In this document: positions 1,051-55,390 of the stretch, in pieces
Layout of the letters: each line of letters begins with the position of its first letter
Position numbering within the stretch: the first letter of the stretch is position 1
Assembly: GCA_947646735.1 (NCBI GenBank)
Contig: CANTFK010000981.1
Span: forward strand, 1-64,000
Direction: 5' to 3'
Source of the DNA: Peronospora farinosa
Lineage: Eukaryota > Oomycota > Peronosporomycetes > Peronosporales > Peronosporaceae
DNA: 64,000 nt
The notes under the pieces: model-generated
Told to the model about the DNA's origin: nothing
What the model saw: only the letters and a program-made list of their open reading frames with translations
Database searches by the model: none
Program-made: the position numbers and the translations under genes

Positions 1051-1917
1051 AGGTTCGGAAGGACTAGCAGAAGAAGCGTGGCGAGAATTAATTGGGGGTC
1101 GCTTACCACCCAAAATTTCATGCGCACGCTTCATGGCGAAGCTGATTCGCTGCGACCGCTGTTTAGTTGCATCTTCATGCAAGGTAACACGGCGCCGAAG
1201 TTCAGCTTCATAGTCGTCGGCTGTTTTGTTAGAACGCAGCACGACTGGAATTGGGAAAGCACGACCAAGTGCTTTGCCCTGCTTTTTCCACAAGGGAAAG
1301 CACTATAAAACTTATGAGCGTCAATAGTGGCACGCTGCAAAAGCGCTGCACTAGACCCATCCGAGCTCATCCACTCAGATGGAGGTGGCATTGGTGGCAA
1401 GCCACCACTCACGTAGCCGCCCTCGCGACGGCGGGCTAGTGAGGCCGACGGTGTACTTGGCGGAGCTTTAAGCTCACCCTCGCCTGAGTCTGACTCTCCA
1501 TTATGGATTGTCAAGACATCAGCATGAGGAGTCATATCTGATGAGTCGAGACTACTCCTTTCGACGTAGCGTGCTCAGCGTTTGTTGCTGCACTCGTAAG
1601 TGCAGGCGACGAGGCTTTACCTTCGCTTGCAGGAAGCATAGAAGCTCTTTCAAGAACGGGTGCCTCAAATGATGGGTACATATGTCCCATCAATGCGCTT
1701 TGCTCATCGCCACTTTGGGGTGATGGCAATGGCGTGCTCTCATTGTAATCTACAATGAGAGATGGATCTTCATCCACATTATAGTGAGATGGAAGATCTA
1801 CCCCAGTGTCTGAAGCACTTTGCGACGACTGCGATAAATCGCGGCGCGTGCGCTTAGTGTTGGACTGCATGGGCGCCTTTGCAGGCAACCCATCAGCAAA
1901 CCACCTTTCGGTGGCGT
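530..1917 (-). pseudogene. Antisense ORF remnant (element A copy of the element B antisense ORF)
   Basis: The minus strand opposite and downstream of the pol remnant encodes a decayed homologue of the 459-codon ORF at 46114-47493. Long readable pieces remain at 1532-2035, 1131-1535 and 721-1293, in different frames, so at least two frameshifts are present. The codon matching the element B start (CAT on the plus strand) reads CGT at 1915-1917, so the start is lost (ATG to ACG). Recognisable stretches include the PSLIVDYNESTPLPSPQSGD block and the AFPIPVVLRSN motif. The product and function are unknown. Confidence 0.8.
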
Positions 1918-2022
1918 GAGAATTGAGTACACTAAGCGGCTCGTTTATAACGGCTCGCAAATCTCTCTGTCTCCTAGGCGATGTTTTACAAAATGTAAAA
2001 ATCATTCTAAAACGGGGGATGG

Positions 2023-2626
2023 TGTGACAGGGCATCTAGTTACACGCAAACATTACTTAATATACTTAATGTTTGGTCTTAAAGTATCCATGATTACTTT
2101 TGACCTGCCACTTGGGTGCGATACACAAATGTGATCCACCCTCGTGAATGTGATATCCATTTATGGACTCACATGGGAAGGGATGACGCTAGTTGAAGCT
2201 AGGCATCGCGACGTCTCAGAAGGACGTCAATTCGCGATCTTAAATCTAGATTTAAGTTCATGCAACAGGATACGCTTCTAAAGAGTCGCGTATCCGATCT
2301 ATATATATATATAGCCAATCAGTAGATAAGTTTATATTTAGTTATAATTTATTAAATATAGCTCAGTCTTGAATTTGCTAACATCAAAAGCACCACGCAC
2401 GAGAATCTGAAGAAGCTTCCTACGTGACGTCGGTGCCTTCTTGTCTTAAAAGTTCGTTGCACTCTCGCTTAAGCGAGAGTAAAACTGGTGTTACAACTGC
2501 TTAAGCAGTCGACCAACCTCCTAACCACCCTCGCACGCAAAGGTAAGACGGTCTAACCGCTTCCTCGCTTGTGCTGAAGGTGTGTGCTAGTAGCACGAGG
2601 CAACTTCGTAGAAGTGCCCGTCTACA
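2023..2626 (+). repeat. 3' LTR of element A (604 bp)
   Basis: The LTR begins TGTGACAGGGCATC just after the purine-rich tract AAAACGGGGGATGG and ends CCCGTCTACA. It aligns along its length with the LTRs of element B. It contains the same palindromes as B: a TTAAATCTAGATTTAA core and two stems centred on CTTAAG. Confidence 0.9.
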
Positions 2627-5610: not shown

Positions 5611-6372
5611 CTACGCTGGCGGCAATTGAAAACGATCAATAGAGACTGAGAAAACAATATCTTCCTTACTCAAAGTAAGCATTGCTTGACCGCCAGGTTG
5701 TTTCCTAATGATATTGCCAACTGTGGCTCCTACCATGTGGTTGGCAGTTCGTGGTCGAAAATCTGCGAGCTCGCTGAACCATTTCACAACTGCAAAGTGG
5801 CTGTTGTAGATTGCAAAGTCAATGGCCACAGTCGTGCAGCCTTCCGTGCGATTTGCCCACAGCCACTGGACCGTAGCCAAATGGCCTCCAGCTGCAGCGG
5901 TATCGATTGCTCCTGTCGTGCAACCCTCTGTGCGATTCTCGTGCAGCCATCGAACGACATCAAGGTGACCACCTGCGGCTGCACTGTTCATTGCGTGCAC
6001 AGAGCAGCCTTCGCTTCTATTCTTGTGAAGCCACTTAACTACTTTCAAATGCCCCCGCAAAGCTGCTGCATCCATCGCACGTGTCGATATCTTGACATTT
6101 GGGCGATAAGCCGTGAGCCACTGAACAATATTCAGGTATCCTTCAGTCGCTGCAATTTGCAAGGACCAGTCCATGCCGTGATCGGTAATCTCTGCGTTTC
6201 GTTCACCCAACCGTTTCAAAAGCGAAAGGTACCCACTGCATGCCGCCTTCTGGACAGTCCACGAAGTGGAGAAGTCTAAGAACGACTCGATGAGTTCCGG
6301 CACCAACCCTCTGGCAATGGGGTCAACCTGATCTCTTACGACTACCTCAACACTTATCATCCGTTCCATCAT
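5611..6372 (-). CDS. Ankyrin-like repeat protein (paralogue 1)
   Basis: A 253-aa single-exon ORF starts at ATG 6370-6372, with a second ATG directly after it. After about 60 residues it consists of roughly six ankyrin-like units of about 33 residues. Examples are GYLNIVQWLTAYR, GHLKVVKWLHKNR, GHLDVVRWLHENR and GHLATVQWLWANR, linked by EGCTT-type turns. This repeat style is abundant in Phytophthora and downy mildews. No signal peptide, membrane segment or other domain is visible, so it probably acts as an intracellular protein-binding scaffold. It lies just upstream of, and in tandem with, a second paralogue at 6732-7496. No partner can be named. Confidence 0.85.
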   Translation of the reverse strand: MMERMISVEVVVRDQVDPIARGLVPELIESFLDFSTSWTVQKAACSGYLSLLKRLGERNAEITDHGMDWSLQIAATEGYLNIVQWLTAYRPNVKISTRAMDAAALRGHLKVVKWLHKNRSEGCSVHAMNSAAAGGHLDVVRWLHENRTEGCTTGAIDTAAAGGHLATVQWLWANRTEGCTTVAIDFAIYNSHFAVVKWFSELADFRPRTANHMVGATVGNIIRKQPGGQAMLTLSKEDIVFSVSIDRFQLPPA

Positions 6373-6731
6373 CGTCGGGTGTTGATCTGCTCTGCTTCCT
6401 GAATTATTTGCTAATTGGAAAATGAGGAAACGCTATGTGGCATTCATGCAAAGCTATTGCCATACGTCAAGTTCAGTGCTGACCTCGTCAAGTCGGCGCT
6501 AAGAATGTATCAGCCCAAAAGGTCTATCGTCGGCCCCGAGGTGACCGTTGATCTGAGACACTTCAGCATCCATTGGTACTACTACCTAACTTTAGTCTCC
6601 AGTAAAATAGCTTCAACATCTAACCGACAACACGGTTCTTATACTTAATTACTGTAGCTTTAATAGCTCTTCGGATCTACGTCAACCGACTCTTGGATCC
6701 CGTTGCTGTGCTTCGTTCGCACAATTCACAC

Positions 6732-7496
6732 TCAGTTCCGGCACGACAGACCCGTACTCAGCCGACGAGGGCGATGCCGTGGCGTTTCCAACAGAGTGGC
6801 ACTCAGTCGTCGTTCTCTACGAGACGAGTGCACCGGTGAGCGTGCACCCATCGTCCGATCAGCGTTTTGCACCTCCAGATTCTGCTCGTTCAGCCATCGT
6901 AGGATGTGCATGTGGCCATTGAGAAGCGCAAAATGCGATGCAATACTTGTGCAGCCTTCTTTGCGGTTAGTCGTGAGCCATTGCACAATCTTAAGGTATC
7001 CTCCAGCAGCTGCACTATCCATAGCAGCGGTAGTGCAGCCCTCGGAACGGTTTTCATGCAACCATTGAACCACATCCAGTCGACCGTAAGCGGCGGCACT
7101 GTCCATGGCTGCAGTCGTACAACCTTCATCACGGTAGTGGTGCAACCACTTGACAATACTTAGATGACCACGCAGAGCTGCCGAGTCCATCACTTGGGTC
7201 GAGCACTCCATGTCGGGTTGGTACGCAGTCAACCACTTGACGACACGAAGATCCCCACGGTCTGCAGCATTACGTAAAGCCCAATCAAGCTCTCGTGGTG
7301 ATATTGGCAACTCTTTCTTGCCCAAACGTTTAAGCAACGTCATGTATCCGGCACAGGCAGCACTTTCAATCACCCATTTGTGCGACGAGTCCAAGTACTC
7401 ACTGATCATTTCAGCCACATGGGGACATCCAGCCAGTGCTTCTTGTTCACGTATCACACATTCTACGGCAGTAAATACAATAATTCGTTCGCTCAT
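6732..7496 (-). CDS. Ankyrin-like repeat protein (paralogue 2, diverged C-terminus)
   Basis: A 254-aa ORF starts at ATG 7494-7496 and is related to the neighbouring 5611-6372 gene along most of its length. It carries the same units (GDLRVVKWLTAYQ, GHLSIVKWLHHYR, GRLDVVQWLHENR, GYLKIVQWLTTNR). Similarity ends after about residue 210. Where paralogue 1 continues with a hydrophobic tail, this copy switches to an Arg/Ser-rich tail (SSRRERRLSATLLETPRHRP), which suggests a frameshift or rearrangement at the 3' end. The pair reads as a tandem duplication. Function is unknown beyond likely protein binding. Confidence 0.8.
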   Translation of the reverse strand: MSERIIVFTAVECVIREQEALAGCPHVAEMISEYLDSSHKWVIESAACAGYMTLLKRLGKKELPISPRELDWALRNAADRGDLRVVKWLTAYQPDMECSTQVMDSAALRGHLSIVKWLHHYRDEGCTTAAMDSAAAYGRLDVVQWLHENRSEGCTTAAMDSAAAGGYLKIVQWLTTNRKEGCTSIASHFALLNGHMHILRWLNEQNLEVQNADRTMGARSPVHSSRRERRLSATLLETPRHRPRRLSTGLSCRN

Positions 7497-21282: not shown

Positions 21283-21873
21283 TGTAACAGGGTATCTAGT
21301 TACTGTACACGTTAACATTAAGCAATATACCTAATGTAAGGTCTAAGTATCTATGATTACTTTTAACCTGTCACTTGGGTGCGATACACAAATGTGCTCC
21401 ACCCTCGTGAATGTGATATCCATTGATGGATTCACATGGGTAAGGATGACGCTAGTTGAAGCTACGCATCGCGACGTCCCAGAAGGACGTCATTAGCGAG
21501 CTTAGGAAGCTCACACGTCAGGATATGCTTCTAAAGAGTCGCGTATTCGATCGTTATATAATCAGCCAAGCAGTAGTTAAGTTTTGTAATCAATAATAAT
21601 TCATTTGATATAACTCAGTCTTGAATTTACTACACACTGTCTACTGCGCACGAGAAGCTGAATAAGCTTTTGCGTGACGTAAGTAGGACACTTTTAGTCG
21701 CTTGTGCGCTCTCGCTTAAGCGAGAGGCAACTGGTAGAACGACTGCGTAAGCAGCCGACCACTCGTACATCCACCCTCGCACGCGAAGATAAGACGGTAT
21801 AACCGCTTCCTCGCTTGTGCTGAAGGTATGCGCTAAGTAGTACGAGGCAACTTCGTAGAAGTGCCTGTCTACA
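21283..21873 (+). repeat. Solo LTR, family 1 (591 bp)
   Basis: This LTR aligns with the element A and B LTRs and has no internal region on either side. It starts TGTAACAGGGTATC and ends GCCTGTCTACA. The flanks are CTGAT (21278-21282) and GTGAT (21874-21878), a five-base target duplication with one mismatch. It therefore looks like a product of recombination between the two LTRs of a former full element. The CTTAAG palindromes are partly decayed. Confidence 0.85.
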
Positions 21874-39867: not shown

Positions 39868-40058
39868 TGTAAATGGGCGCTTCGTAAAGAAGCTGCTACG
39901 TACTACGCGGGCACACCTTCAAGCATTGCGAGGAAGCGGTTAAACCGTCTGACCTCCGCGTGCGGTGGTGGCTGCGTTGCTCGGTCGCTCAAAGCGCCGA
40001 ACCAAACTGTATCCGGCCGCTTAAAAGCGGTCCGCGCAACGAACGACTAAGAACTGCC
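39868..40058 (-). repeat. Old family 1 LTR, part 1 (host of element B)
   Basis: The minus strand is a diverged family 1 LTR end (reverse complement of the ...CCCGTCTACA side). It is interrupted exactly at the element B target site CTGCC (40054-40058). The rest continues at 48214-48625. The two parts sum to about 603 bp, the family's usual LTR length. Outer flanks CTTAG (39863-39867) and CATAG (48626-48630) are a one-mismatch target duplication, so it is a solo LTR inside the element D LTR. Confidence 0.85.
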
Positions 40059-40667
40059 TGTAACAGGGTACCTATTTACACGTAAACATTAGGTAATATA
40101 CTTAATGTTTGGTCTAAAAGTATCCATGATTACTTTTGACCTGTCACTTGGGTGCGATACACAAATGTGATCCACCCTCGTGAATGTGATATCCATTGAT
40201 GGATTCACATGAGAAGGGATGACGCTAGTTGAAGCTAGGCATCACGACGTCTCAGAAGGACGTCAGTTGCGATCTTAAATCTAGATTTAAGATCATGCGA
40301 CAGGATACGCTTCTAAAGAGTCGCGTATCCGATCATATATATATATATATATATATATAGCCAATCAGTAGTTAAATATATATTTAGTTATAATTAATTA
40401 AATATATCTCAGTATTGAATTTCCCTAAACAAACACACCACGCACGAGAAGTTGAAAGACTTCTGCGTGACGTCGGTGTTCTAGTGTTAAGAAGTTCGTT
40501 GCACTCTCGCTTAAGCGAGATGCAACTGGTGGTACGACTGCTTAAGCAGTCGACCAACCTCCCAACCACCCTCGCACGCGAAGGTAAGACGGTATAACCG
40601 CTTCCTCGTATGTGCATAAGGTGTGTGCTCGTAGTACGAGGCAACTTCGTAGAAGTGCCCGTCTACA
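40059..40667 (+). repeat. 5' LTR of element B
   Basis: 609 bp, TGTAACAGGGTACC to CCCGTCTACA. It contains an (AT)n tract near 40335-40360. Three perfect palindromes are present: 40271-40294 (GATCTTAAATCT and its complement), 40505-40520 (TCTCGCTTAAGCGAGA) and 40535-40552 (CGACTGCTTAAGCAGTCG). Confidence 0.97.
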
Positions 40668-40669
40668 CT

Positions 40670-40687
40670 TGGTAGCACTAGTAGTCC
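40670..40687 (+). promoter_or_regulatory. Primer-binding site of element B
   Basis: TGGTAGCACTAGTAG starts two bases after the 5' LTR. TGG complements the CCA end of a tRNA. Similar sequences occupy the same place after the LTR ends at 55976 (TGGTACCACTTGTAG), 63724 (TGGTAGCACTTTG) and, on the minus strand, 29020 (TGGTAGCGCTTGAGG). Confidence 0.75.
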
Positions 40688-40726
40688 TTCCCACGACCCG
40701 TCTCTCTGAGCGTGCGTGTGGTTGAC

Positions 40727-41809
40727 ATGGTCCTTAATATGGACTGGAGTGACTTCCCTCACCTCTCCCAACATCATAGGGAGTTGGCAGAGCATATGGC
40801 GCAGGGACTTGGTGAACAAGCCCTGGTCAATCTCTTGCATTGTCCTTCTGAGCAACATGTTGCTCAGTTGGAGCAATTTGAGGCGTTTGTGCTCGGACAG
40901 CGTAGAAACGCGTCCGAGGTAAACAGCCAAGCCACCGCTGAGTCCATCAATAAGACTCAGGATGAGCTTAGGCTTGAGCTGGCACGTAATGAGGCGCTCA
41001 ACAGGACTGTTGAGACGCTTTCTGCCCGGCCTGCTCAACCGAGGCCCATTCGGATGGACCCTCCGAAGTTCGATGGAACTAGCCCTCACACGATTGTTCA
41101 CTGGCTATTAGCAGTGGAGCAATGTGGAGTGGCGCAGCTCATCGAAGACGACACTAGAATGGTGTCGTATGCCATGTCCAACTTACGTGGCAAAGCGTCA
41201 GAGTGGGCATACTCTGCGCTGATGGCAAATGCTGATGCATTTCCATCATGGGCGATCTTTAAGGCAAAGATTCGCGCCATGTATCAGCCGCCTAACAACG
41301 AAGTGTTGCTTATGGCGCGCTTCTTTGGAGCACGACAGGCGAAACGCTCTCTGCAAGAGTTTGTGCAGGAGATGCGTTCGCTGTCGGCGTCCATCAATGG
41401 GGAACCGATACCAGAGCGTATCAAGGTAGCCACGTTCATGAATGGACTTAGGCATGGCCCATCGCGTCAGGCCCTTTTCAGAAAGGTGCCAGCGACGATG
41501 GAAGAGGCAATTGACATTGCCTTAGTTGAGGAGCAATCCTACAACAGCGCCTCGGCGACAGCCTATTACAGGCCGTCTTCCGAGAATTCTGATGCCACTC
41601 CTATGGAGTTAGGCAATGCAGATGTGATCTGCTACAAGTGCGGCAAGCGAGGCCATATGATGGCTCGCTGCTATGTCAAGGTAGCTGCTGGTGCTAAGGC
41701 AGCCAGCAAAAGGTCTCCCAACCCGAAGGGAGGTGCGAAAAACCAGCGTGCACGACGCACGGGTTCAGCACCTGCCCAAGATGGGTCGGGAAATGCGGGA
41801 GCGCAGTAG
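40727..41809 (+). CDS. gag: Gag capsid-nucleocapsid protein of element B
   Basis: A 360-aa open frame from ATG 40727; the frame runs back to a GTG at 40712, but ATG is preferred. The N-terminal region is helical and Glu/Gln-rich. The capsid-like retrotransposon gag domain follows (PPKFDGTSPHTIVHWLLAVE, MSNLRGKASEWAYSAL, FGARQAKRSLQEFVQEMRSL, FMNGLRHGPSRQALF). The C-terminus has one zinc knuckle, CYKCGKRGHMMARC (CX2CX4HX4C), followed by a basic KAASKRSPNPKGGAK tail for nucleic-acid binding. It should assemble the virus-like particle and package element RNA. It is in a different frame from the protease that follows, as in many Ty3/gypsy elements using frameshifting, but here the shift cannot be told from mutation. 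Confidence 0.92.
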   Translation: MVLNMDWSDFPHLSQHHRELAEHMAQGLGEQALVNLLHCPSEQHVAQLEQFEAFVLGQRRNASEVNSQATAESINKTQDELRLELARNEALNRTVETLSARPAQPRPIRMDPPKFDGTSPHTIVHWLLAVEQCGVAQLIEDDTRMVSYAMSNLRGKASEWAYSALMANADAFPSWAIFKAKIRAMYQPPNNEVLLMARFFGARQAKRSLQEFVQEMRSLSASINGEPIPERIKVATFMNGLRHGPSRQALFRKVPATMEEAIDIALVEEQSYNSASATAYYRPSSENSDATPMELGNADVICYKCGKRGHMMARCYVKVAAGAKAASKRSPNPKGGAKNQRARRTGSAPAQDGSGNAGAQ

Positions 41810-41811
41810 GG

Positions 41812-42324
41812 GCGGGATGCCCTACTGTCGCGGACTCTGAAGCTACCCCTAAGTTCAGAGTGATCGAACAAATGGGTAGCATAGTCCCTGAGGTTCCGAA
41901 AGGTCGGACCTCAACCCTTTTGGTCTATAGCGCTCGAGTACGAGGCTATGACCAAGTGATGACCCTTCTCGTGGATTCGGGTGCATCACAAAACTTTGTG
42001 AAACTCGCGGCTCTGAAAAAGAGTCCGGCGAGTTATGAGTCGCTTTGCCAGGATGGCAAGCGAGAAGAGGCGATCTTTCGTTTAGCGAACGGCGCGCTCG
42101 TCAAATCGGAGGGAGTTCAAGTTGAACTCGCCTTCAGCTTTAGTGACTTCTCTTGTAAAGAGAAGCTCACAGTGCTAGGTATGGAGAGTCCGTATGACCT
42201 CATCCTAGGCATGCCTTGGTTGGCTAAACACCAACCATGGATAGACTGGCGTACACGCACAGTCGCTAGCTCCACCCAATACACCGGAAAGGATGTGCTC
42301 TTGCGAGAGGCTTATGTGAGCTGA
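41812..42324 (+). pseudogene. pol: Aspartic protease domain of element B pol
   Basis: This open stretch encodes the retropepsin-like domain: active site MTLLVDSGASQNFV (DSG triad), flap region and LILGMPWLAKHQPWIDW near the end. It lies in a +2 frame relative to gag and ends at TGA 42322-42324, immediately before the linker frame begins. The protease core itself looks intact; the polyprotein it belongs to is interrupted. Confidence 0.8.
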
Positions 42325-43072
42325 TGTTGTGTCCAACACAGTCGAGAGCGCTATAACGGTATGTCAATCGGCACCAGGAACTACCCAGCTCGAAAGGAGT
42401 GGTGTAGTCGGAAGTGCACTGGCGGAAAGCCAGGTGACACATATTCCTACCCAGGTCGAAGAGACTGGTGTAGTGAATGGGGCGATGACAGGTAGTCATG
42501 CGTACAATGGTCCTGCACAGAGCCGAGAGCCTGTGGCAGTTGATGGTGGGCTGACAGGAAGTCAAGCGCCACAAGAACCGGCACAGAGCCAAGAGCCTGG
42601 TGCGGTTGGAAGGAGTGCGTTAGCTGAGATAGCAACGACACCTTCTTCCAGGTCAAAGGTCGTGGTGACTCGAAGAACGAGCACCAGACGTATTAAGACG
42701 ATCAAGGGCACGTCGAAACGAGTGACCCTTGGATCAGTCTCGGTCCAAGAGGACGGACCTACGAACGAGTTGTTCGAGGCCGTCGAAGACAAAATGTCGG
42801 AGGCATCCTCAGTTGAGGTGCTCCAACTTGTCTTGGCATCTGCCGAGGAGATAGTAAATCTCTCGGAGATGACGTGGGATCTGTTCCTGTCCGAACTAAA
42901 GGAAGGAAAGATCCACGAGATAGTCGCACCAGTTCCAGAAGAGAACATGGTGGACTGTTGCTCTTCATCCACAATGGATGAGAGCGTCTTGGAGACCGAC
43001 AAAAAGAAACGGTTCGCTGCTCAAGGCTGGTATGCCTTGAAGGACAGCCCGTTCTATGATGTTCTGTGGAAA
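42325..43072 (+). pseudogene. Protease-RT linker region of element B pol
   Basis: About 245 codons stay open in frame 2 between protease and RT. The first half is low-complexity (repeats of PAQSREPVAVDGGLTGSQ type), the second half more ordered and acidic (EVLQLVLASAEEIVNLSEMT, LFLSELKEGKIHEIV, KKRFAAQGWYALKDSPFYDV). No known enzyme domain is visible. The frame ends where RT resumes in frame 1; the junction (YDVLWKH to PDVFPAEVPS) suggests a small indel near 43070. Confidence 0.7.
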
Positions 43073-43644
43073 CACCGGATGTGTTTCCAGCAGAAGTGCC
43101 GAGCCGCCTACCGGCCGATAGGGGCATCAGGCACGAAATTGACCTGGAGCCTGGCACCAAGTATTGTGTGACCAGGCAATGGCCGTTGCCGAAGGAACAA
43201 GTCGATTACATCGATGAGTTCTTCGACAAGCGAGCTAAGGCGGGACATGTACGTGAGAGCAAGTCGCCTCACTGCAGCCCGACCTTCTGTGTGCGTAAAG
43301 CAACAGGTGGATGGCGCGTGGTTCACGCTTATAATAAGCTGAAAACGGCCACCATTCCAGCTCAAACGCCGATCCCGCGGAACGATGTTTTGTTGAATTC
43401 CATGGGAAAGCCAACTATCTTTTCCGCGTTGGATCTGAAGGATGGCTACTATCAGGTCCTCATGAGAGATACCGATGTAGCCAAAACGGCAGTAAGCACC
43501 CCAAGCGGTATGCTGTGGGAGTGGCTTGTGATGCCACAAGGGTTGAAAAATGCTCCGGCAACATTCAACCGAGTGGTGGCTCACGTGATGCGTCAGCACC
43601 GTGCCTACGCGCCCCATTACTTTGGACGATGTATTCGTGCATAG
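43066..43644 (+). pseudogene. Reverse transcriptase (N-terminal part) of element B, broken at YFDD
   Basis: RT fingers and palm are clear: RHEIDLEPGTKYCVTRQWPL, SPHCSPTFCVRKATGGWRVV, IFSALDLKDGYYQVLM, WEWLVMPQGLKNAPATFN. The frame breaks inside the catalytic motif: B reads TACTTTGGACGATG while element C (52988) reads TACTTTGACGATG. One extra G at about 43621-43622 turns YFDDVFVHS into YFG plus a short wrong tail. The rest of RT continues in the next frame. Confidence 0.9.
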
Positions 43645-45115
43645 TAGGGCGGAGGACGGTCTGAGTGCAATAGAGTCGCACAAGCGTCATTTAGACGCTG
43701 TGTTGCAGACTCTGGGTGACGCCCAATTATACCTGAACTTGCGAAAGTGCGTAATAGGGGTCCCCGAGATACCTGTACTGGGCTGCATCGTAGGTGCACA
43801 TGGTGTACGAGCAGACCCAGAAAAGGTAAAGGCTGTAAAGGAATGGCAAGTCCCACGTCATGTGAAGGATCTGCGCCAATTCCTTGGGCTCGCTAATTAC
43901 TTGCATAAGTACAGCAAGAATTATGCAGAGCAGACCAAGCCATTGTCTGAACTTTTGAAAAAGGATACAGAATGGACTTGGTCAAAGGAGCAAGTAGATG
44001 CGTTCACTTCAGTGAAGCAATCTCTTGTAGAGGCACCGGTCTTGGCATTGCCAGACGCGGATAAGCCCTTTAGATTCGTCTGCGATGCAAGCAATTTTGC
44101 AATCGGCAGCGCGCTCATGCAGAAGGATGACAACGGCGTTGACCGTGTCATTTCTTATCAGTCTCGGCTTTTAAAAGCTGCCGAGCTGAAGTACCCTGTG
44201 CATGACAAGGAGCTACTTTCAATTAAGTATGCCCTTGTGAAGTTTCGGGTGCACCTCTTGGAAACCGAACCTTTTGTGGTTTATACGGATCACGCATCAC
44301 TGGGGACCGCTATAAATTCACCGCACCTCTCGCCGAGAATGGCAAGATGGCTGACATTCTTCTCTGAATTTAATTTCAAAGTTAAATATAATCCAGGTAA
44401 GTCGAATGTCTTGGCTGACGCGTTATCGCACAGACCAGACTTCGAGGCCAGACACCAGGAAAGTGTGTCTCGTGCGAAAGCACAAGTTGAGTCGTCAACA
44501 TTGGCAGCCATGATGGCCTACCATGTGACGAGCTCAATGGCCTCCGATATCAAGGAGTGTTACAGTCAGGAAGAACATTGTCGCCTGCAGTTGGATCATT
44601 TTGGTGGACGAAAGGTTACCCTTCCGTCGCACCTCAAAGCGAAGTTAAATCGCTTTAGTTACAGTGATGGCCTGCTATGGCATCAACTGTCACCCTGTGA
44701 TCCCTTGAGAATCTATGTCCCTCATGACACAGATCTCAAGCTGATGATACTTCACGAGTGCCATGATGCGCCATCTAGTGGGCATCTGGGCCGTGAAAAG
44801 ACATTCTTACGAGTGTCAGAGGAATTTTGGTGGCCCCACCTATATCGGTGGGTGGCCAACTATATTCGCTCTTGTGAAGAGTGTCAGCGCATAAAGCCTG
44901 CACCTTCAAACAGTGCGCCACTGAAGCCACTGCCGATTCCAACTGAATGTTGGAAGTCGGTCAGTTTGGACTTCATGTTTGGCTTACCGCCTGACCATAA
45001 AGGCAGGACGGGGCTCGTCGTCTTTGTAGACAGACTGAGCAAGACGGTGCATTTGGCACCATGTAGCACCAAGATCTCAGGAAAAGAGGCTGCCCTCTTG
45101 TTCCTAACCGTGTAG
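43622..45115 (+). pseudogene. RT C-terminus, RNase H and integrase N-terminus of element B
   Basis: The second pol frame carries DDVFVHSRAEDGLSAIESH, the RT connection (ADPEKVKAVKEW, LRQFLGLANYLHKYS), RNase H (FRFVCDASNFAIGSALMQ, ELKYPVHDKELLSIKYAL, VYTDHAS, GKSNVLADALSHRP), the integrase HHCC zinc finger (HECHDAPSSGHLGREKT through CEECQRI) and the beginning of the core (LDFMFGLPPDHKGRTGLVVF). It ends at TAG 45113-45115, where element C reads CATGTGTATCGACTAC. An extra base in B (GTGTAGTCGACTAC) shifts the frame. Confidence 0.9.
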
Positions 45116-46625
45116 TCGACTACACGTGATTCCCGAGTCCATAGTATCGGACCGGGATCCGCGTTTTACGTCGGGTTTTTGGTGACATTTGTTCGAGCTG
45201 CTGGGTAGCAAGCTCCACATGTCAACCGCTGATCATCCCCAGACCGATGGCCAAACAGAACGGGCCAATCGAGTCGTGGCGGATGTGTTGCGTACAATAG
45301 CGACTCCTAAAGAATGGAGCAAGCAATTGCCATTCGTGGAGTTCGCTATTAATAACAGTGTTCACGCCAGTACGGGTGAAACACCGTTTTACAGTAACGG
45401 ACTGCGTCATCCTCGAACGCCAGTCTCGTTTGTACGCAGCCCAAGTCTTAGTGGGGGAGGGCCCCTCACTTCTCTCGGTGAGAATGCCAAAGAGGGCCAA
45501 GGTTGCCCTAGTGACACTGCTAGTTTAGCAGTGGTCACGTCACCTATAGGTGTCACAGAGGAGGCACGGCAAGAAATGCCAGTGCTCCTTGATGATGACA
45601 CTATAGTGTTGTCAACAGCGTCGACCCATAAACGACCTCTTGGAGGCGTCATAGGCGAGCTGGATGCTAAAAGCGTGAGCGAAGCTCAGCGCTTTGTGGA
45701 TGAGTGATTAGCCATCACACATAAAGTCCGTGACGCGATCGAAAGCGCACAGGACAAGCAAAAACAATATGCAGACCAGCATGGTCGCAAAAACAATGAA
45801 CACTTTAGTGTGGGGGACAAAGTGCTATTAAGTACTGCTACCCTACCTAAACATGCAATCTCTGTACTACCTGGTGGTACTACTAAGCTATTGCCCCGAT
45901 TCATTGGGCCCTTTACAGTGGTTGAAGAAGTTGGAGACCTAAATTATAGGCTCACTCTCCCGTCGTATATGAAGACGCCGTCCGTATTCTACGTGGGTCG
46001 TCTGAAACGGTATGTTGATCCAGAAGAGATCACATATCCGCAACGGTCTAACGAGACCGATGGTGACGTCGACTGTGGGTCGAGCGTCGCGGCCGATCAG
46101 GTGACGAGGAAGCCTAGAGGCTCCCCGTATATGAACGAGGCGATAGAGGACTCGGCGATCGAGGAGGACTCCGCGCTTGACGCGGGTCTCTCATCACCAG
46201 TCGCTCTAAGATGTCCAAACGGGTCTTCAGGCGGTCATACCCCTGACGGTCCCTCGTCCTCACATCGCGCAGATCCAAAGTCAGTCGCGAGACTTGACTC
46301 TCGAGATCTGACACCTGTCTCTTCAGCGCAGCAGACTCAGCCTGCGACTGAACAACAGCAGGGTAGGCAGCCGCGATTAGGTGGGCGTAATCGTCACTCC
46401 TATCGGGCGCCACCTGTGTTGGTGGACACGGATGGGAATACGCGCTTCCTTGTTGGAAGGCTGTTGGCCCACCGGTTTGTGAAGCGAAAGCTCCAAATCC
46501 TTGTCCAGTGGAAGGGTTACCCAACGAGCTTTGACTCGTGGGAGCCTGTGGACGCTTTGCGCGTTGACGTGCCTGGGCTGGTGGCTGCTTATGTGAAGCA
46601 GCACCAGCTGTTTTCTTTCTGCTAG
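45116..46625 (+). pseudogene. Integrase core end, GPY/F region and chromodomain of element B
   Basis: The third pol frame resumes with integrase core segments [33 protein letters not shown] and EFAINNSVHASTGETPFYSN. Then come an acidic insertion, a TGA at 45703-45705, the helical SAQDKQKQYADQHGRKN, the GPY/F segment (LPRFIGPFTVVEEVG) and a C-terminal chromodomain (RFLVGRLLAHRFVKRKLQIL, QWKGYPTSFDSWEP). Element A has CGA where B has TGA, so the stop is a CpG transition. The last 512 bases overlap the antisense ORF. Chromodomain integrases direct insertion to marked chromatin. Confidence 0.9.
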
Positions 46626-47493
46626 GTCCGGAAGGACTAGCAGAAGAAGCGTGGCGAGAATTAATTGGGGGTCGCTTAATGCCCATAATTTCATGCGCAC
46701 GCTTCATGGCGAAGCTGATTCGCTGCGACCGCTGTTTCGTTGCATCTTCATGCAAGGTAACACGGCGCCGAAGTTCAGCTTCATAGCCGTCGGCTGTTTC
46801 GTTAGAACGCAGCACGACTGGAATTGGGAAAGCACGACCAAGTGCTTTGCCCTGCTTTTTCCACAAAGGAAAGACGCTATAGAATCTATGAGCGTCTATA
46901 GTGGCACGCTGCAAAAGCGCTGCGCTAGACCCATCCGAGTTCATCCACTCAGATGGAGGTGGCATTGGTGGCAAGCCACCACTCACGTAGCCGCCCTCGC
47001 GACGGCGGGCTAGTGAGGCCGAAGGTGTACTTGGTGAAGCTTTAATCTCACACTCACCTGAGTCCGACTCTCCATTATGGATTGTCAAGACATCAGCTTG
47101 AGGAGTTACATCTGACTGAGTCGCGACTACTCCTTTCAAAGTAGCGTGCTCAGTCTTAGTCGCTGCGCTCGTAGGCGCAGGCGACGAGGTTTTACCTTCG
47201 CTTTTAGGAAGCATAGATGCTTCCTCAAGGACGGGTGCCTCAAATGATGGGGACATATGTCCCATCAATGCGCTATGCTCATCGCCACTTTGGGGTGATG
47301 GCAATGGTGTGGTCTCATTGTAGTCAACAATGAGAGATGGATCTTCATCCACATTATCGTGAGATGGAAGATCCACCCCAGTGCCTGACGCACTTTGCGA
47401 CGGCTGCGATAAATCGCGGCGCGTGCGCTTAGTGTTGGACTGCATGGGTGCCTTTGCAGGCGACCCATCAGCCTTACCACGTTTCGGTGGCAT
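46114..47493 (-). CDS. Antisense ORF of element B (459 codons), unknown function
   Basis: An uninterrupted minus-strand frame starts at ATG 47491-47493, about 107 bp inside the 3' LTR, and runs against pol. Codons 1-288 lie beyond pol; codons 289-459 overlap the pol 3' end. Residues 1-30 are basic (MPPKRGK, KRTRRD; a possible nuclear signal). Residues 40-190 are acidic and Ser/Pro-rich (DEDPSLIVDYNETTPLP). Residues 200-275 look structured (AHRFYSVFPLWKKQGKALGR, AFPIPVVLRS, RVTLHEDATKQRSQRISFA). Residues 290-380 are Pro/Gln/Ala-rich, 385-433 form a probable coiled coil (AALKRQVSDLESQVSRLTLD), and the tail is SPPRSPSP-rich. No signal peptide, membrane helix or enzyme motif is seen. Family members A and C hold decayed copies. 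A regulatory or nuclear role is speculation. Confidence 0.75.
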   Translation of the reverse strand: MPPKRGKADGSPAKAPMQSNTKRTRRDLSQPSQSASGTGVDLPSHDNVDEDPSLIVDYNETTPLPSPQSGDEHSALMGHMSPSFEAPVLEEASMLPKSEGKTSSPAPTSAATKTEHATLKGVVATQSDVTPQADVLTIHNGESDSGECEIKASPSTPSASLARRREGGYVSGGLPPMPPPSEWMNSDGSSAALLQRATIDAHRFYSVFPLWKKQGKALGRAFPIPVVLRSNETADGYEAELRRRVTLHEDATKQRSQRISFAMKRAHEIMGIKRPPINSRHASSASPSGPSRKKTAGAASHKQPPAQARQRAKRPQAPTSQSSLGNPSTGQGFGAFASQTGGPTAFQQGSAYSHPCPPTQVAPDRSDDYAHLIAAAYPAVVQSQAESAALKRQVSDLESQVSRLTLDLRDVRTRDRQGYDRLKTRLDILERLVMRDPRQARSPPRSPSPLSPRSYTGSL

Positions 47494-47585
47494 GAGTATT
47501 GAGTAGACTAAAGCGGCGCGTTTATAACGGCTCGCCAGTCTCTCTGTCTCTTAGGCGATGTTTTATAAAATGTAAACATCGTTCT

Positions 47586-47599
47586 AAAACGGGGGATGG
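47586..47599 (+). promoter_or_regulatory. Polypurine tract of element B
   Basis: AAAACGGGGGATGG lies directly before the 3' LTR and would prime plus-strand DNA synthesis. The same tract precedes the LTR of element A (about 2009-2022). Confidence 0.85.
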
Positions 47600-48208
47600 T
47601 GTAACAGGGTACCTATTTACACGTAAACATTAGGTAATATACTTAATGTTTGGTCTAAAAGTATCCATGATTACTTTTGACCTGTCACTTGGGTGCGATA
47701 CACAAATGTGATCCACTCTCGTGAATGTGATATCCATTGATGGATTCACATGAGAAGGGATGACGCTAGTTGAAGCTAGGCATCACGACGTCTCAGAAGG
47801 ACGTCAGTTGCGATCTTAAATCTAGATTTAAGATCATGCGACAGGATACGCTTCTAAAGAGTCGCGTATCCGATCATATATATATATATATATATATAGC
47901 CAATCAGTAGTTAAATATATATTTAGTTATAATTAATTAAATATATCTCAGTACTGAATTTCCTTAAACAAACACACCACGCACGAGAAGTTGAAAGACT
48001 TCTGCGTGACGTCGGTGCCTTCTAGTGTTAAGAAGTTCGTTGCACTCTCGCTTAAGCGAGATGCAACTGGTGGTACGACTGCTTAAGCAGTCGACCAACC
48101 TACCAACCACCCTCGCACGCGAAGGTAAGACGGTATAACCGCTTCCTCGCTTGTGCATAAGGTGTGTGCTCGTAGTACGAGGCAACTTCATAGAAGTGCC
48201 CGTCTACA
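47600..48208 (+). repeat. 3' LTR of element B
   Basis: 609 bp, nearly identical to the 5' LTR. Differences seen include CCACTCTCG versus CCACCCTCG, GTACTGAATTTCCTT versus GTATTGAATTTCCCT, GGTGCCTTCTAG versus GGTGTTCTAG and ACTTCATAG versus ACTTCGTAG, plus AT-tract length. The 24-bp palindrome recurs at 47812-47835. Confidence 0.97.
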
Positions 48209-48213
48209 CTGCC

Positions 48214-48625
48214 TCACTTACGTCACACAGAAATTTATCAAGCTTCTTGTGCGAAGTGGGCAATAGTTAGTAAATTCAAGACTGACTTATATTTAATATG
48301 TTTTAACTAAATATAAGTTTAACTACTGATTGGGTTATTATGCAAAGATTAAATACGCGTCACTTTAGAAGCGTATCCTTACGTACGAGCTTTAAATATA
48401 TTTAAGCTCGCTGGTGACTTCTGTTTGAAGCGTCACCATGACGCCCAGTCCCAACTGGCGTCATCTTTGTTAAATGTGAATCCATCCATGGATATCACAT
48501 TCACGAGGGTGGGTCACTTTGATGTGCCACATCCAAGTGGCAGGCCTGAGGTACCTCGTACCCATTTAGACCTGCCCTTCAAGTATTCGATACTTAACGA
48601 ACCGTGTAACTTTTAACCAGTTACA
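48214..48625 (-). repeat. Old family 1 LTR, part 2
   Basis: The minus strand continues the LTR interrupted at 40058 and ends, on the plus strand, with CCAGTTACA at 48625 (TGTAACTGG start on the minus strand). It shares the ATATCACATTCACGAGGGTG segment with the other family 1 LTRs and is diverged throughout. Confidence 0.85.
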
Positions 48626-52538: not shown

Positions 52539-54225
52539 TTGACCAGGCAATGTCCGTTTCCGAAGGAACAAGTCGATTACATCGATGAGTTCTTCGACAA
52601 GCGAGCCAAGGCGGGACATGTACGTGAGAGCAAGTCGCCTCACTGCAGCCCGACCTTCTGTGTGCGTAAAGCAACAGGTGGATGGCGCGTGGTTCACGCT
52701 TATAATAAGCTGAACACGGCCACCATTCCAGCTCAAACGCCGATCCCGCGGAACGATGTTTTGTTGAATTCCATGGGAAAGTCAACTATCTTTTCCGCGT
52801 TGGATCTGAAGGATGGCTACTATCAGGTCCTCATGAGAGATACCGATGTAGCCAAAACGGCAGTAAGCACCCCAAGCGGTATGCTATGGGAGTGGCTTGT
52901 GATGCCACAAGGGTTGAAAAATGCTCCGGCAACATTCAACCGAGTAGTGGCTCACGTGATGCGTCAGCACCGTGCCTACGCGCCCCATTACTTTGACGAT
53001 GTATTCGTGCATAGTAGGGCGGAGGACGGTCTGAGCGCGATAGAGTCGCACAAGCGTCATTTAGACGCTGTGTTGCAGACTCTAGGTGACGCCCAATTAT
53101 ACGTGAGCTTGCAAAAGTGCGTAATAGGGGTCCCCGAGATACCTGTACTGGGCTGCATCGTAGGTGCACATGGTGTACGAGCAGACCCAGAAAAGGTAAA
53201 GGCTGTAAAGGAATGGCCAGTCCCACGACATGTGAAGGATCTGCGCCAATTCCTTGGACTCGCTAATTACTTGCATAAGTACAGCAAGAATTATGCAGAG
53301 AAGACTAAGCCATTGTCTGAACTTTTGAAAAAGGATAGAGAATGGGCTTGGTCAAAGGAGCAAGTAGATGCGCTAACATCAGTGAAGTAATCTCTTGTAG
53401 AGGCACCGGTCTTGGCATTGCCAGACGCGGATAAGCCCTTTAGCGTCGTCTGCGATGCAAGAAATTTTGCAATCGGCAGCGCGCTTGTGCAGAAGGATGA
53501 CGACGGCATTGACCGTGTTATATCGTATCAGTCTCGGCTTTTAAAAGCTGCCGAGCTGAAGTACCCTGTGCATGACAAGGAGCTACTTTCAATTAAGTAT
53601 GCCCTTATAAAGTTTCGGGTGCACCTCTTGGAAACCGAACCTTTTGTGGTTTATACGGATCACGCATCACTGCGGACCGCTATGAATTCACCGCACCTCT
53701 CGCCTAAGATGGCGAGATGGCTAACATTCTTCTCTGAATTTGATTTCAAAGTTGAATATACGCCGGGCATCTGGTCCATGAAAGACATTCTTACGAGTGT
53801 CAGAGGAACTTTTTGGTGGCCCCACCTATATCATTGTAGCCAACTATATTCGCTTTTGTGAAGAGTGTAAGAGTATTGAGTCTGCACCTTTTAGCAGTGA
53901 GACATTGAAGCCACTACCAATTCCAACGGATTGCTTGAAGTCGTTCAGTTTGGACTTCATGTGTGGCATACCGCCCTGGGGACGGGGCTCGTTGTCTTTG
54001 TAGACAGACTGAGCAAGATGGTGCGTTTGGTACCATGTAGCACCAAGATCTAATGAAAAGAGGCTGCCCTGTTGTTTCTGGATCATGTGTATCGACTACA
54101 GGGGATGCCCAGATCCATAGTATCGGATCGGGATCCGCGTTTTACGTCAGGCTTTTGACGTCATGTGTTTGAGTTGCTGGGAAGCAAGCTCCACATGTCA
54201 ACAGCCGAACATCCCCAGACGGTGT
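52539..54225 (+). pseudogene. RT, RNase H and truncated integrase of element C
   Basis: RT is open from 52539 through the catalytic YFDDVFVHSRAED, which element B has lost, up to a TAA at 53388-53390. RNase H follows at 53412 (FSVVCDARNFAIGSALVQ, KYPVHDKELLSIKYAL). A deletion then joins the end of RNase H (FDFKVEYTPG) to the integrase zinc finger region (CEECKSIESAP). The core remnant breaks off at TCAACAGCCGAACATCCCCAG near 54200. This copy is useful for reconstructing which bases in element B are new. Confidence 0.88.
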
Positions 54226-54239
54226 GCTAGTAATGCCGA

Positions 54240-54760
54240 CTGTGAAGTCGAAAGGTCATTTTTCACACCCTCACCTAACTCTGACTCTCCGTTGATGGAT
54301 TGTCAAGACGTCAAACTTTGGGTTGACAGAGGCGGTCAATTTAAAACGATGTTGAGTCGCGGCTGTTTCCTTCGAAGCAGCGCGCTCAGTTGTGATCGCT
54401 GCTCCCGTTGACGCAGAAGACGAGGCATGACCCTCACTCTCAGCATATATAAAAGCTTCCTGAAGGTTGGATGCCTCTAGTGATGGGGACTATGTCTCAT
54501 CAACACACTGTGATCATTACCACGTAGACGAGATGGCAATGACGTAGTCAACAATGAAAGACAAGTCTTCATTCGCACCATTATAGGATAGATCATTGTT
54601 CTCTGCTGACAAGCTGACATTAGATAATGGAGTTGGCACCGAGACATTTAGCGACGGCTGCAAGTTATCGCGGCGCGTACGCTTGGTGCTGGTCTGCATG
54701 GGTCCCTTTGCAGGCGACCCATCAGCATTTCGGCGTTTCGAGTGGCATCTCTTCTTTTTG
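54240..54760 (-). pseudogene. Antisense ORF remnant of element C
   Basis: The minus strand encodes the N-terminal part of the family 1 antisense ORF. Readable pieces are MQTSTKRTRRDNLQPSLNVS and NEDLSFIVDY (54517-54699), matching KRTRRDLSQPSQS and DPSLIVDY of element B. The rest of the protein is deleted. It lies directly inside the 3' LTR, as in A and B. Confidence 0.75.
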
Positions 54761-54803
54761 ATATTGTACGAAATATAAAAATGGTCTTAAAGAAGGTGGA
54801 TGG

Positions 54804-55390
54804 TGTGAAGGGCCGATATTTACGATATTAAGTATATACTAATTAGCGGGCAGGCCTCCAAAGGTTTGTAAGTACTAAAGAACTGTCGCTTGGGTAAGAC
54901 ACACCATGTGTAACACCCTTGTGTATGTAGGTGTATTCACATTCGACGGGGATGACGCCCAGTTGGGACTAGGCGTCATATTGACGTCACAGATGGACGT
55001 CATCAGCGAGCTTATATACATTTAAGCTCGCGCGTAGGATAAGCTTCTACATAGATGCGTAGTCGATCTTTACATATCAACCAATCTGTAGTAAGAGTTA
55101 TATTTAATTAGGACCTAATTATTATATGTCATTCTAAAATTTTCTAAAGAACGTCCACTGCGCACGAAAAGCTGATAAGCTTCTGCGTGACGTAAGTTAG
55201 GCACTTGCTAGTTGTCCGATGCGCGAATCGCTCTAAGCGGCCGGCAACAGTTTGGTTCGGCGCTTTAAGCGGTCGGCCAGCTCAACCACCACCGCACGCG
55301 CAAGTAAGACGGTCTAAACCGCTTTCTCGCGCTGCTTGAAGGTATTACCGCGTAGGACGTGGCAGTATCTTTACGAAGCGCTCGTCTATA
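54804..55390 (+). repeat. 3' LTR of element C (587 bp), diverged family 1
   Basis: It starts TGTGAAGGGCCG after a weak purine tract (AAGAAGGTGGATGG) and ends CGCTCGTCTATA. It aligns with the other family 1 LTRs through ATCTTT, CGCACGAAAAGCTGATAAGC and CGCACGCGCAAGTAAGACGG. The palindromes centred on CTTAAG are decayed. Confidence 0.8.

Follow-up and report, generated by a model that had tools for sequence, protein, structure and literature searches.

Antisense accessory genes of long terminal repeat (LTR) retrotransposons are known, but their roles are not. In plants, antisense open reading frames (ORFs) between pol and the 3' LTR have been described in Grande, RIRE2 and Retand (PMC7264820, PMC11963269), and the Grande product is nuclear and has a promoter of its own (PMC7264820; PMC11963269). 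The gene brtn is an additional antisense gene in Boty-like elements of Botrytis cinerea (PMC8365987, PMC7264820), and MchSLE-1, an LTR element of mussels, carries an antisense ORF and produces antisense RNA commanded by its 3' LTR (PMC10974842). Deltaretroviruses also possess antisense genes, including HTLV-1 HBZ and those of the APH proteins (PMC10186651); HBZ combines an N-terminal activation domain with a C-terminal bZIP (PMC10186651) and is nuclear (PMC11963269). Among the Peronosporales, Chronos is a Ty3/gypsy element with a chromodomain and a second archaeal-type RNase H (PMC5348765). Here we describe a long ORF in a stretch of 64,000 nucleotides from Peronospora farinosa (contig CANTFK010000981.1 of assembly GCA_947646735.1, positions 1 to 64,000, hereafter the window). 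It is antisense to the gag-pol of a Ty3/gypsy element with a chromodomain, lies between pol and the 3' LTR and partly overlaps pol. With a probability of roughly 0.6, we consider it to be an antisense accessory gene of a Peronospora chromodomain element that overlaps the end of pol tail to tail.

The ORF resembles those of Grande and Retand in position, orientation and presence in many copies, but differs from them in its oomycete host and in its overlap with the chromodomain end of pol; gene23 of Grande was likened by description. Moreover, Retand is a non-chromovirus, whereas the present element has a chromodomain, and Retand TRP28 (PF04195) gave no match at E ≤ 1 in six members of the protein family found here. 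Like brtn, it is an additional antisense gene carried by an LTR element whose host is a filamentous plant pathogen, although Botrytis belongs to a different kingdom, and like that of MchSLE-1, an animal element, it is an antisense ORF in an LTR retrotransposon; both were likened by description. The likeness to HBZ and APH consists of an antisense gene toward the 3' LTR side and a coiled coil near the C-terminus, an analogy without demonstrated sequence relation. Unlike HBZ, the present protein has an RS-like (arginine/serine) tail after the coiled coil, no bZIP match in Pfam and, judged by eye, no basic region before the zipper. The element is, like Chronos, a chromodomain Ty3/gypsy element of Peronosporales; a Chronos-type second archaeal RNase H was not found, 43589-45112 matching RT_RNaseH models only. 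Neither "antisense" nor "additional ORF" occurs in the main text of PMC5348765, and no oomycete antisense retrotransposon gene was reported in the titles and abstract beginnings found, mainly in open-access literature. A preliminary description of the window had drawn the parallel with plant antisense ORFs such as Grande; the parallel is apt, but such genes are not limited to plants, as Boty in Botrytis and the mussel element illustrate. As far as the literature was searched, the gene is of a known kind but new to its host group, the oomycetes; it encodes a distinct protein, and its overlap with pol includes an apparent switch of constraint between strands.

The Antisense Frame and Its Copies

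The minus-strand ATG frame of 459 codons in the preliminary description was confirmed to be open by the ORF list and translation (table 1). Its N-terminal part lies outside pol and the rest overlaps, as had been described: codons 1-289 lie beyond the last sense ORF, which ends at 46625, and the codons after 289 overlap the chromodomain end of pol. The longest sense ORF opposite codons 1-289 measures 138 codons from stop to stop. When 46114-47600 was shuffled with its dinucleotides preserved, none of 2,000 shuffles reached 459 codons (maximum 243), nor did any of 2,000 shuffles of 46626-47600 reach 288 codons (maximum 250).

In the genome searched (46.9 Mb), at least 92 matches to the antisense protein were found. 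These were the best 92 of 1,211 candidates, listed best first, and copies without the antisense frame were not sought; all of those listed were at least 80% identical to the query. Fifty-one of the matches listed covered the query from residue 1 or 2 through residue 458 or 459; by hand count, 27 of these, window included, were free of stops. Random stops in most copies had been named as evidence that would speak against a gene, and within the limits of a best-first list this count speaks for it. Frame lengths were compared in an alignment of the window and 43 copies, most of them picked for high score, so that the following are not population fractions. The commonest frame length was 481 codons (16 of 44 rows, one of these without the ATG), and an ATG followed by at least 470 codons was present in 18 of the 44. 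The stop at codon 460 is private to the window copy, being absent from all 43 other copies. The window copy is truncated and misses about 22 residues of the C-terminal tail relative to the family. The earlier contrast between a broken pol and an intact antisense frame in this copy therefore held for pol, which lies in pieces of changing frames, but not for the antisense frame, which has a private stop in a family of 481 codons. Each of six lower-scoring copies (L057-L062) has an indel that breaks the antisense ORF within its acidic low-complexity stretch (nucleotides 345-490). In two of these copies the indel is at the same position, and some of the six may share ancestry.

Selection on the Antisense-Only Part

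Singleton variants mostly arose after insertion, and variants common to several copies mostly came from lineages that were still multiplying. The ratio of non-synonymous to synonymous change (dN/dS, omega) was calculated on 46626-47493 for these two classes from 41 of 42 aligned rows (the window and 41 copies, each copy represented by its best BLAST stretch; L063 was dropped, and L066 and L067 were outside the alignment). A preliminary omega analysis had used 39 of 44 rows, with L057, L058, L063, L066 and L067 dropped. We found that singletons comprised 198 non-synonymous and 78 synonymous changes, giving an omega of 0.94 (bootstrap 0.74-1.23), while variants in at least three rows comprised 38 and 36, giving 0.40 (0.26-0.64). 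The contrast was significant (Fisher P = 0.0013; 0.0053 for variants in at least two rows). A ratio near 1 over the non-overlapping codons had been named beforehand as a sign that there is no gene, and 0.40 departs from it, within the limits of the sample discussed below. Stops were absent from variants in at least three rows (3.0 expected), and one was present among those in at least two rows (5.6 expected). The integrase, read in the sense frame, had the same pattern (singletons 0.98; shared variants 0.52, 0.31-0.92), so the antisense ORF is conserved to a degree comparable to pol. Per 100 bp, variants in at least three rows numbered 7.8-9.1 in the antisense-only part, close to the 7.5 of pol, whereas the LTR had 23.7-30.5.

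The reduction was specific to the phase of the codons. For variants in at least three rows, the coding frame of the antisense-only part had an omega of 0.40 and its third-position mirror on the other strand 0.49, while the other four frames ranged from 1.45 to 2.58; the mirror frame contained six shared stops (3.5 expected) and the coding frame none. When the LTR was treated as coding, its six frames gave 0.64-1.41 for the same class of variants. Neighbouring duplicates, which may exist among the rows, would raise omega, and shared variants are not independent events. Codons appear to be kept in multiplying lineages and to decay once inserted, and the simplest reading of this is an accessory gene aiding the element's spread. 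From these patterns of codon variation, protein-level selection almost certainly acts on the antisense gene.

The Overlap with pol

In the overlap, the third positions of antisense codons fall on the second positions of sense codons. Because of this phasing, constraint on one strand shows as an excess on the other, and the ruling strand can be identified. Over the coiled-coil and tail part, 13 non-synonymous and 19 synonymous variants were counted in the antisense frame against 27 and 3 in the sense frame. Over the chromodomain part, the sense frame had 8 and 9, and the antisense frame 16 and 1 (omega values in table 1). Constraint therefore appears to change strand within about 570 bp of overlap, with small counts that make the direction firmer than the values.

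Relatives and Predicted Protein

A protein search with 8,000 scored candidates returned 14 proteins at E ≤ 0.001. They include P0002 of P. effusa (481 amino acids, 94% identity) and, from ENA/Logan contigs, P0009 (488 amino acids, 61%), P0012 (559 amino acids, 49%), P0013 and P0014 (480 amino acids, 46%) and P0015 (419 amino acids, 49% identity with 81% covered, without the coiled coil). The distant relatives align across nearly the whole length of the antisense protein. A profile search added P0016-P0018 and a conserved-block search P0019, while the viral and prokaryote contig collections searched held no relatives. Residues invariant in six diverse members include VDY-E, P-MP-P--W, GR--PIPVVL--NET-D-YE and QRSQR. 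When P0012 and P0017 were compared with the 8.3-kb element, their N-terminal extensions resembled the translation of the window element's LTR/polypurine junction (E = 0.002 and 7e-4), and their genes, judged from this similarity, likely occupy the same position in another lineage. When the genome was queried with P0014 and P0012, the matches listed contained only the same family and no other subfamily. Element-encoded antisense proteins of P. effusa and P. farinosa (P0002-P0005, P0007, P0008, P0010 and P0011) have been deposited as unnamed proteins. Among these, P0003 aligns with locus L065 in two segments, at 97-99% identity, and its gene model seems to have been joined across a frameshifted copy.

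The protein begins with a basic region and an acidic stretch, followed by the conserved block; a linker encoded opposite the chromodomain then leads to the helix and to a basic tail rich in RS and SP (serine/proline). The modules named in the preliminary description, namely the basic start, an acidic Ser/Pro stretch, a block with AFPIPVVLRS, a coiled coil and an SP-rich tail, were all recovered. We take the KRTRR-type cluster at the N-terminus to be a possible nuclear import signal, and presume from its composition that the tail, whose basic RS/SP-rich character was found in all five relatives examined, is of the RS type. Confidence of the predicted C-terminal helix was high, with ten-residue means of the predicted local distance difference test (pLDDT) of 65-95 over residues 366-435 and of at least 79 over residues 371-430. 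In six sequences, L, I, V or M occupied 67-75% of the heptad a and d positions of the best 42-residue stretch, against shuffle maxima of 0.50-0.63 (100 shuffles each; the score is ad hoc). Coiled-coil-mediated oligomerisation is supported by this prediction. The full-length model had a mean pLDDT of 47.5 and was confident in the long C-terminal helix only, and a model of residues 151-283 was low as well (mean 49.0).

The window protein had no Pfam or NCBIfam match passing the cut-off, and one Pfam match below it. Six relatives gave weak matches to six Pfam families, mostly coiled coils, the best being CLZ (leucine zipper; E = 0.0013); NCBIfam gave none for P0001 and two below the cut-off for P0014. 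A profile search of the Protein Data Bank returned one match (E = 0.34), in the coiled-coil part. Two candidate identities were rejected: a chance frame was ruled out by the shuffles and by omega, and a gag or capsid-like protein by an hhalign probability of 0.1% against the element's gag and by the lack of a recognised zinc knuckle.

Element Architecture in the Window

The retrotransposon occupies 40059-48208, with two LTRs of 609 bp and a 5-bp target duplication. Its domain order, which is gag, protease, reverse transcriptase (RT), a single gypsy-type RNase H, integrase zinc domain, SH3-like integrase end and chromodomain, together with the LTRs and the target duplication, identifies it as a Ty3/gypsy LTR retrotransposon with a chromodomain. 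The element is young: 5' and 3' LTRs differ by 7 substitutions in 607 aligned columns, plus 4 gap columns. The pol of this copy is broken into pieces at 41698-42324, 42320-43171, 43060-43644, 43589-45115, 45186-45707 and 45708-46625, with changing frames; the pieces were chosen by position among 32 stop-to-stop ORFs. The two best matches among solved RTs were 4ol8_A (reverse transcriptase/ribonuclease H) and the Ty3 polyprotein 7q5b_A. In at least one other genomic copy, pol is open for more than 1,600 codons and the antisense frame is open as well.

Table 1.— Features of the element and of its antisense ORF in the window
Feature	Position	Strand	Basis
Antisense ORF as open in the window copy, 459 codons	46114..47493	-	ORF list, translation
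Continuation of the family frame (481 codons), starting at the stop private to the window copy	46048..46116	-	Copy alignment; P0002
Antisense-only coding part, codons 1-289	46627..47493	-	Omega 0.40, variants in at least 3 rows; computed on 46626-47493
Overlap part, antisense constrained, sense not	46048..46404	both	Omega antisense 0.35, sense 4.26
Overlap part, sense chromodomain constrained, antisense not	46405..46622	both	Omega sense 0.40, antisense 7.32
Basic N-terminus, residues 1-26, KRTRR-type cluster	47416..47493	-	Alignment of relatives
Conserved acidic/hydrophobic motif DEDPSLIVDYNE, residues 49-60	47314..47349	-	Alignment of relatives
Most conserved block, residues 161-270, three low-confidence predicted helices	46684..47013	-	Alignment, models
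Predicted 70-residue helix, residues 366-435, heptad pattern (coiled coil)	46189..46398	-	pLDDT, heptads
5' LTR, 609 bp, TG...CA	40059..40667	+	Repeat search; ends inspected and aligned
3' LTR, 609 bp	47600..48208	+	Repeat search, alignment
Target-site duplication CTGCC	left 40054..40058, right 48209..48213	+	Sequence flanking the LTRs
Polypurine tract adjoining the 3' LTR	47586..47599	+	Sequence; identified by position
gag ORF (Retrotrans_gag)	40727..41809	+	Pfam; zinc knuckle slightly under cut-off
pol remnants, several frames: protease, RT, RNase H, integrase zinc domain, SH3-like domain, chromodomain	41872..46625	+	Domain matches
Chromodomain, end of pol	46452..46598	+	Pfam PF00385, E = 1.6e-8

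Further remains of such elements were observed in the window. The stretch 82-2626 is a 91.7% copy of the element's 3' third, in which the antisense frame persists as an ORF at 1532-2035 (minus strand). At 54218-55364 lies a diverged copy (64%) of the antisense gene start and LTR, whose N-terminal frame is recognisable (about 38-53% identity to several relatives) yet contains stops; from this copy, an older subfamily of the antisense gene seems once to have been present. Related subfamilies are represented by LTR-like pieces at 48220-48544 and 21283-21873; one of the two is inverted (73%), the other apparently a solo LTR (79%). An imperfect palindrome, CGATGTTTTATAAAATGTAAACATCG, occupies 47556-47581, in the interval from the ORF start to the polypurine tract, and varies among copies. 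Elsewhere, two adjacent ankyrin-repeat-like ORFs of 253 and 254 amino acids were identified by eye at 5611-7496 on the minus strand. Contigs C57, C213, C266, C267, C42 and C216 contain close copy pairs in opposite orientation with nearly equal scores, which are candidates for palindromic duplications or fold-back assembly artefacts.

Proposed Role and Alternative Explanations

Considering the antisense accessory gene first, several points weigh against it. The argument is drawn from sequence, and the distant relatives are known as protein sequences. The antisense promoter was not located. In 32 of 42 rows a TATAAA stands 28-33 nucleotides upstream of the ATG, a distance too short for an ordinary start, and a second TATAAA further out is disrupted by a change in 27 of the 42 (positions worked out by hand). 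The leader between the ORF and the LTR is richer in shared variants than the ORF (17.8 per 100 bp, variants in at least three rows). Among the LTR controls, the lowest value (0.64, with no interval computed) came from the minus frame that shares the phase of the ORF, and it shows the reach of noise or linked variants on omega. Most of the copies analysed were best protein matches, a bias that could lower omega; it explains neither the neutral singletons nor the strand switch. As to the switch, the two overlap parts differed in both frames (Fisher P = 0.00024 antisense, 0.0037 sense), values that are optimistic in that these data had already been inspected once when the border 46404/46405 was chosen. 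Shared and singleton variants contrasted weakly within the tail part (P = 0.015 antisense, 0.09 sense) and within the chromodomain part (P = 0.08 sense, 0.10 antisense), and an unrelated minus frame over the chromodomain likewise gave an omega of 0.40. Finally, both a nuclear location and a function as an accessory or regulatory protein are plausible from composition alone.

With these points taken into account, it is about an even chance that the product is a nuclear accessory protein acting on the element. The antisense RNA would start in or just inside the 3' LTR and run back into pol, and would be translated into a mostly disordered protein of 481 amino acids. This protein may oligomerise via its coiled coil and enter the nucleus via the basic N-terminus, the RS-like tail or both. 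Once there, it would target the RNA or chromatin of the element itself in trans, in the manner of Grande gene23 or HTLV HBZ. Copies carrying the gene would spread better as a result. Among possible activities, we tentatively put transcriptional control as in HBZ first, then RNA handling as in Rev, and last a role in the particle. More tentatively, we hypothesized an independently evolved, oomycete-specific family of antisense proteins, HBZ-like regulators of the element whose 3' end shares its DNA with pol by turns. As part of the same tentative proposal, the antisense coiled coil and RS tail would be used opposite a loose pol linker, and the sense chromodomain opposite a loose antisense linker.

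The explanation that survives best beside the nuclear accessory protein, although we think it unlikely, is that the gene is selected but its product is structural or handles RNA, serving genomic RNA export, packaging or as a particle component rather than as a regulator of transcription. The basic RS/SP-rich tail and the coiled coil would suit an RNA-binding, oligomerising protein, but the protein has no profile similarity to the element's gag and no zinc knuckle or RNA-binding domain was recognised in it, and bulk production of a structural protein from a minus-strand mRNA would be unusual.

Considerably less probable is a captured host gene, or the remains of a nested element, preserved but unused by the element. 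Such an origin would fit a protein unlike the element's gag and without a Pfam match above the printed cut-off. However, the 92 genomic matches listed are all close to the query, searches starting from the distant relatives P0014 and P0012 led back to this family among the matches listed, selection is visible among the element's own copies, and the extensions of P0012 and P0017 resemble the LTR/polypurine junction. A weakly similar host gene would fall outside the matches listed, so that this leaves room for a capture long ago.

It is quite improbable that the frame is incidental and the antisense RNA itself matters, restraining the element as a long non-coding RNA, as double-stranded RNA or through small RNAs. 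Antisense small RNAs of Gypsy elements exist in Phytophthora infestans (PMC3522703), and such roles have been discussed for plant elements (PMC7264820). Nevertheless, an RNA-level role does not predict constraint specific to codon phase, with omega low only in the coding frame and its mirror, or distant relatives that can be aligned over nearly their full length. As for a frame that is open by chance, by composition, as a by-product of pol on the opposite strand or because the copies are young, it has in its favour the youth of the element, the stretch opposite pol and the single dip among the LTR controls, but is already contradicted by the shuffles, the short sense ORFs opposite codons 1-289, the constrained shared variants beside neutral singletons and the relatives at 46-61% identity.

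Implications

A family of many copies separates variation in multiplying lineages, which is constrained, from decay after insertion, which is neutral. Viewed in this way, our result suggests that the minus strand is under selection for its protein, about as strong as that on pol. The overlap provides a natural example of two antiparallel genes sharing DNA, with constraint that seems to pass from one strand to the other. Genes of the element sit in databases as unnamed downy mildew proteins. If the distant relatives prove to come from Phytophthora or other genera, the origin of the antisense gene would go back as far as that section of the Peronosporales.

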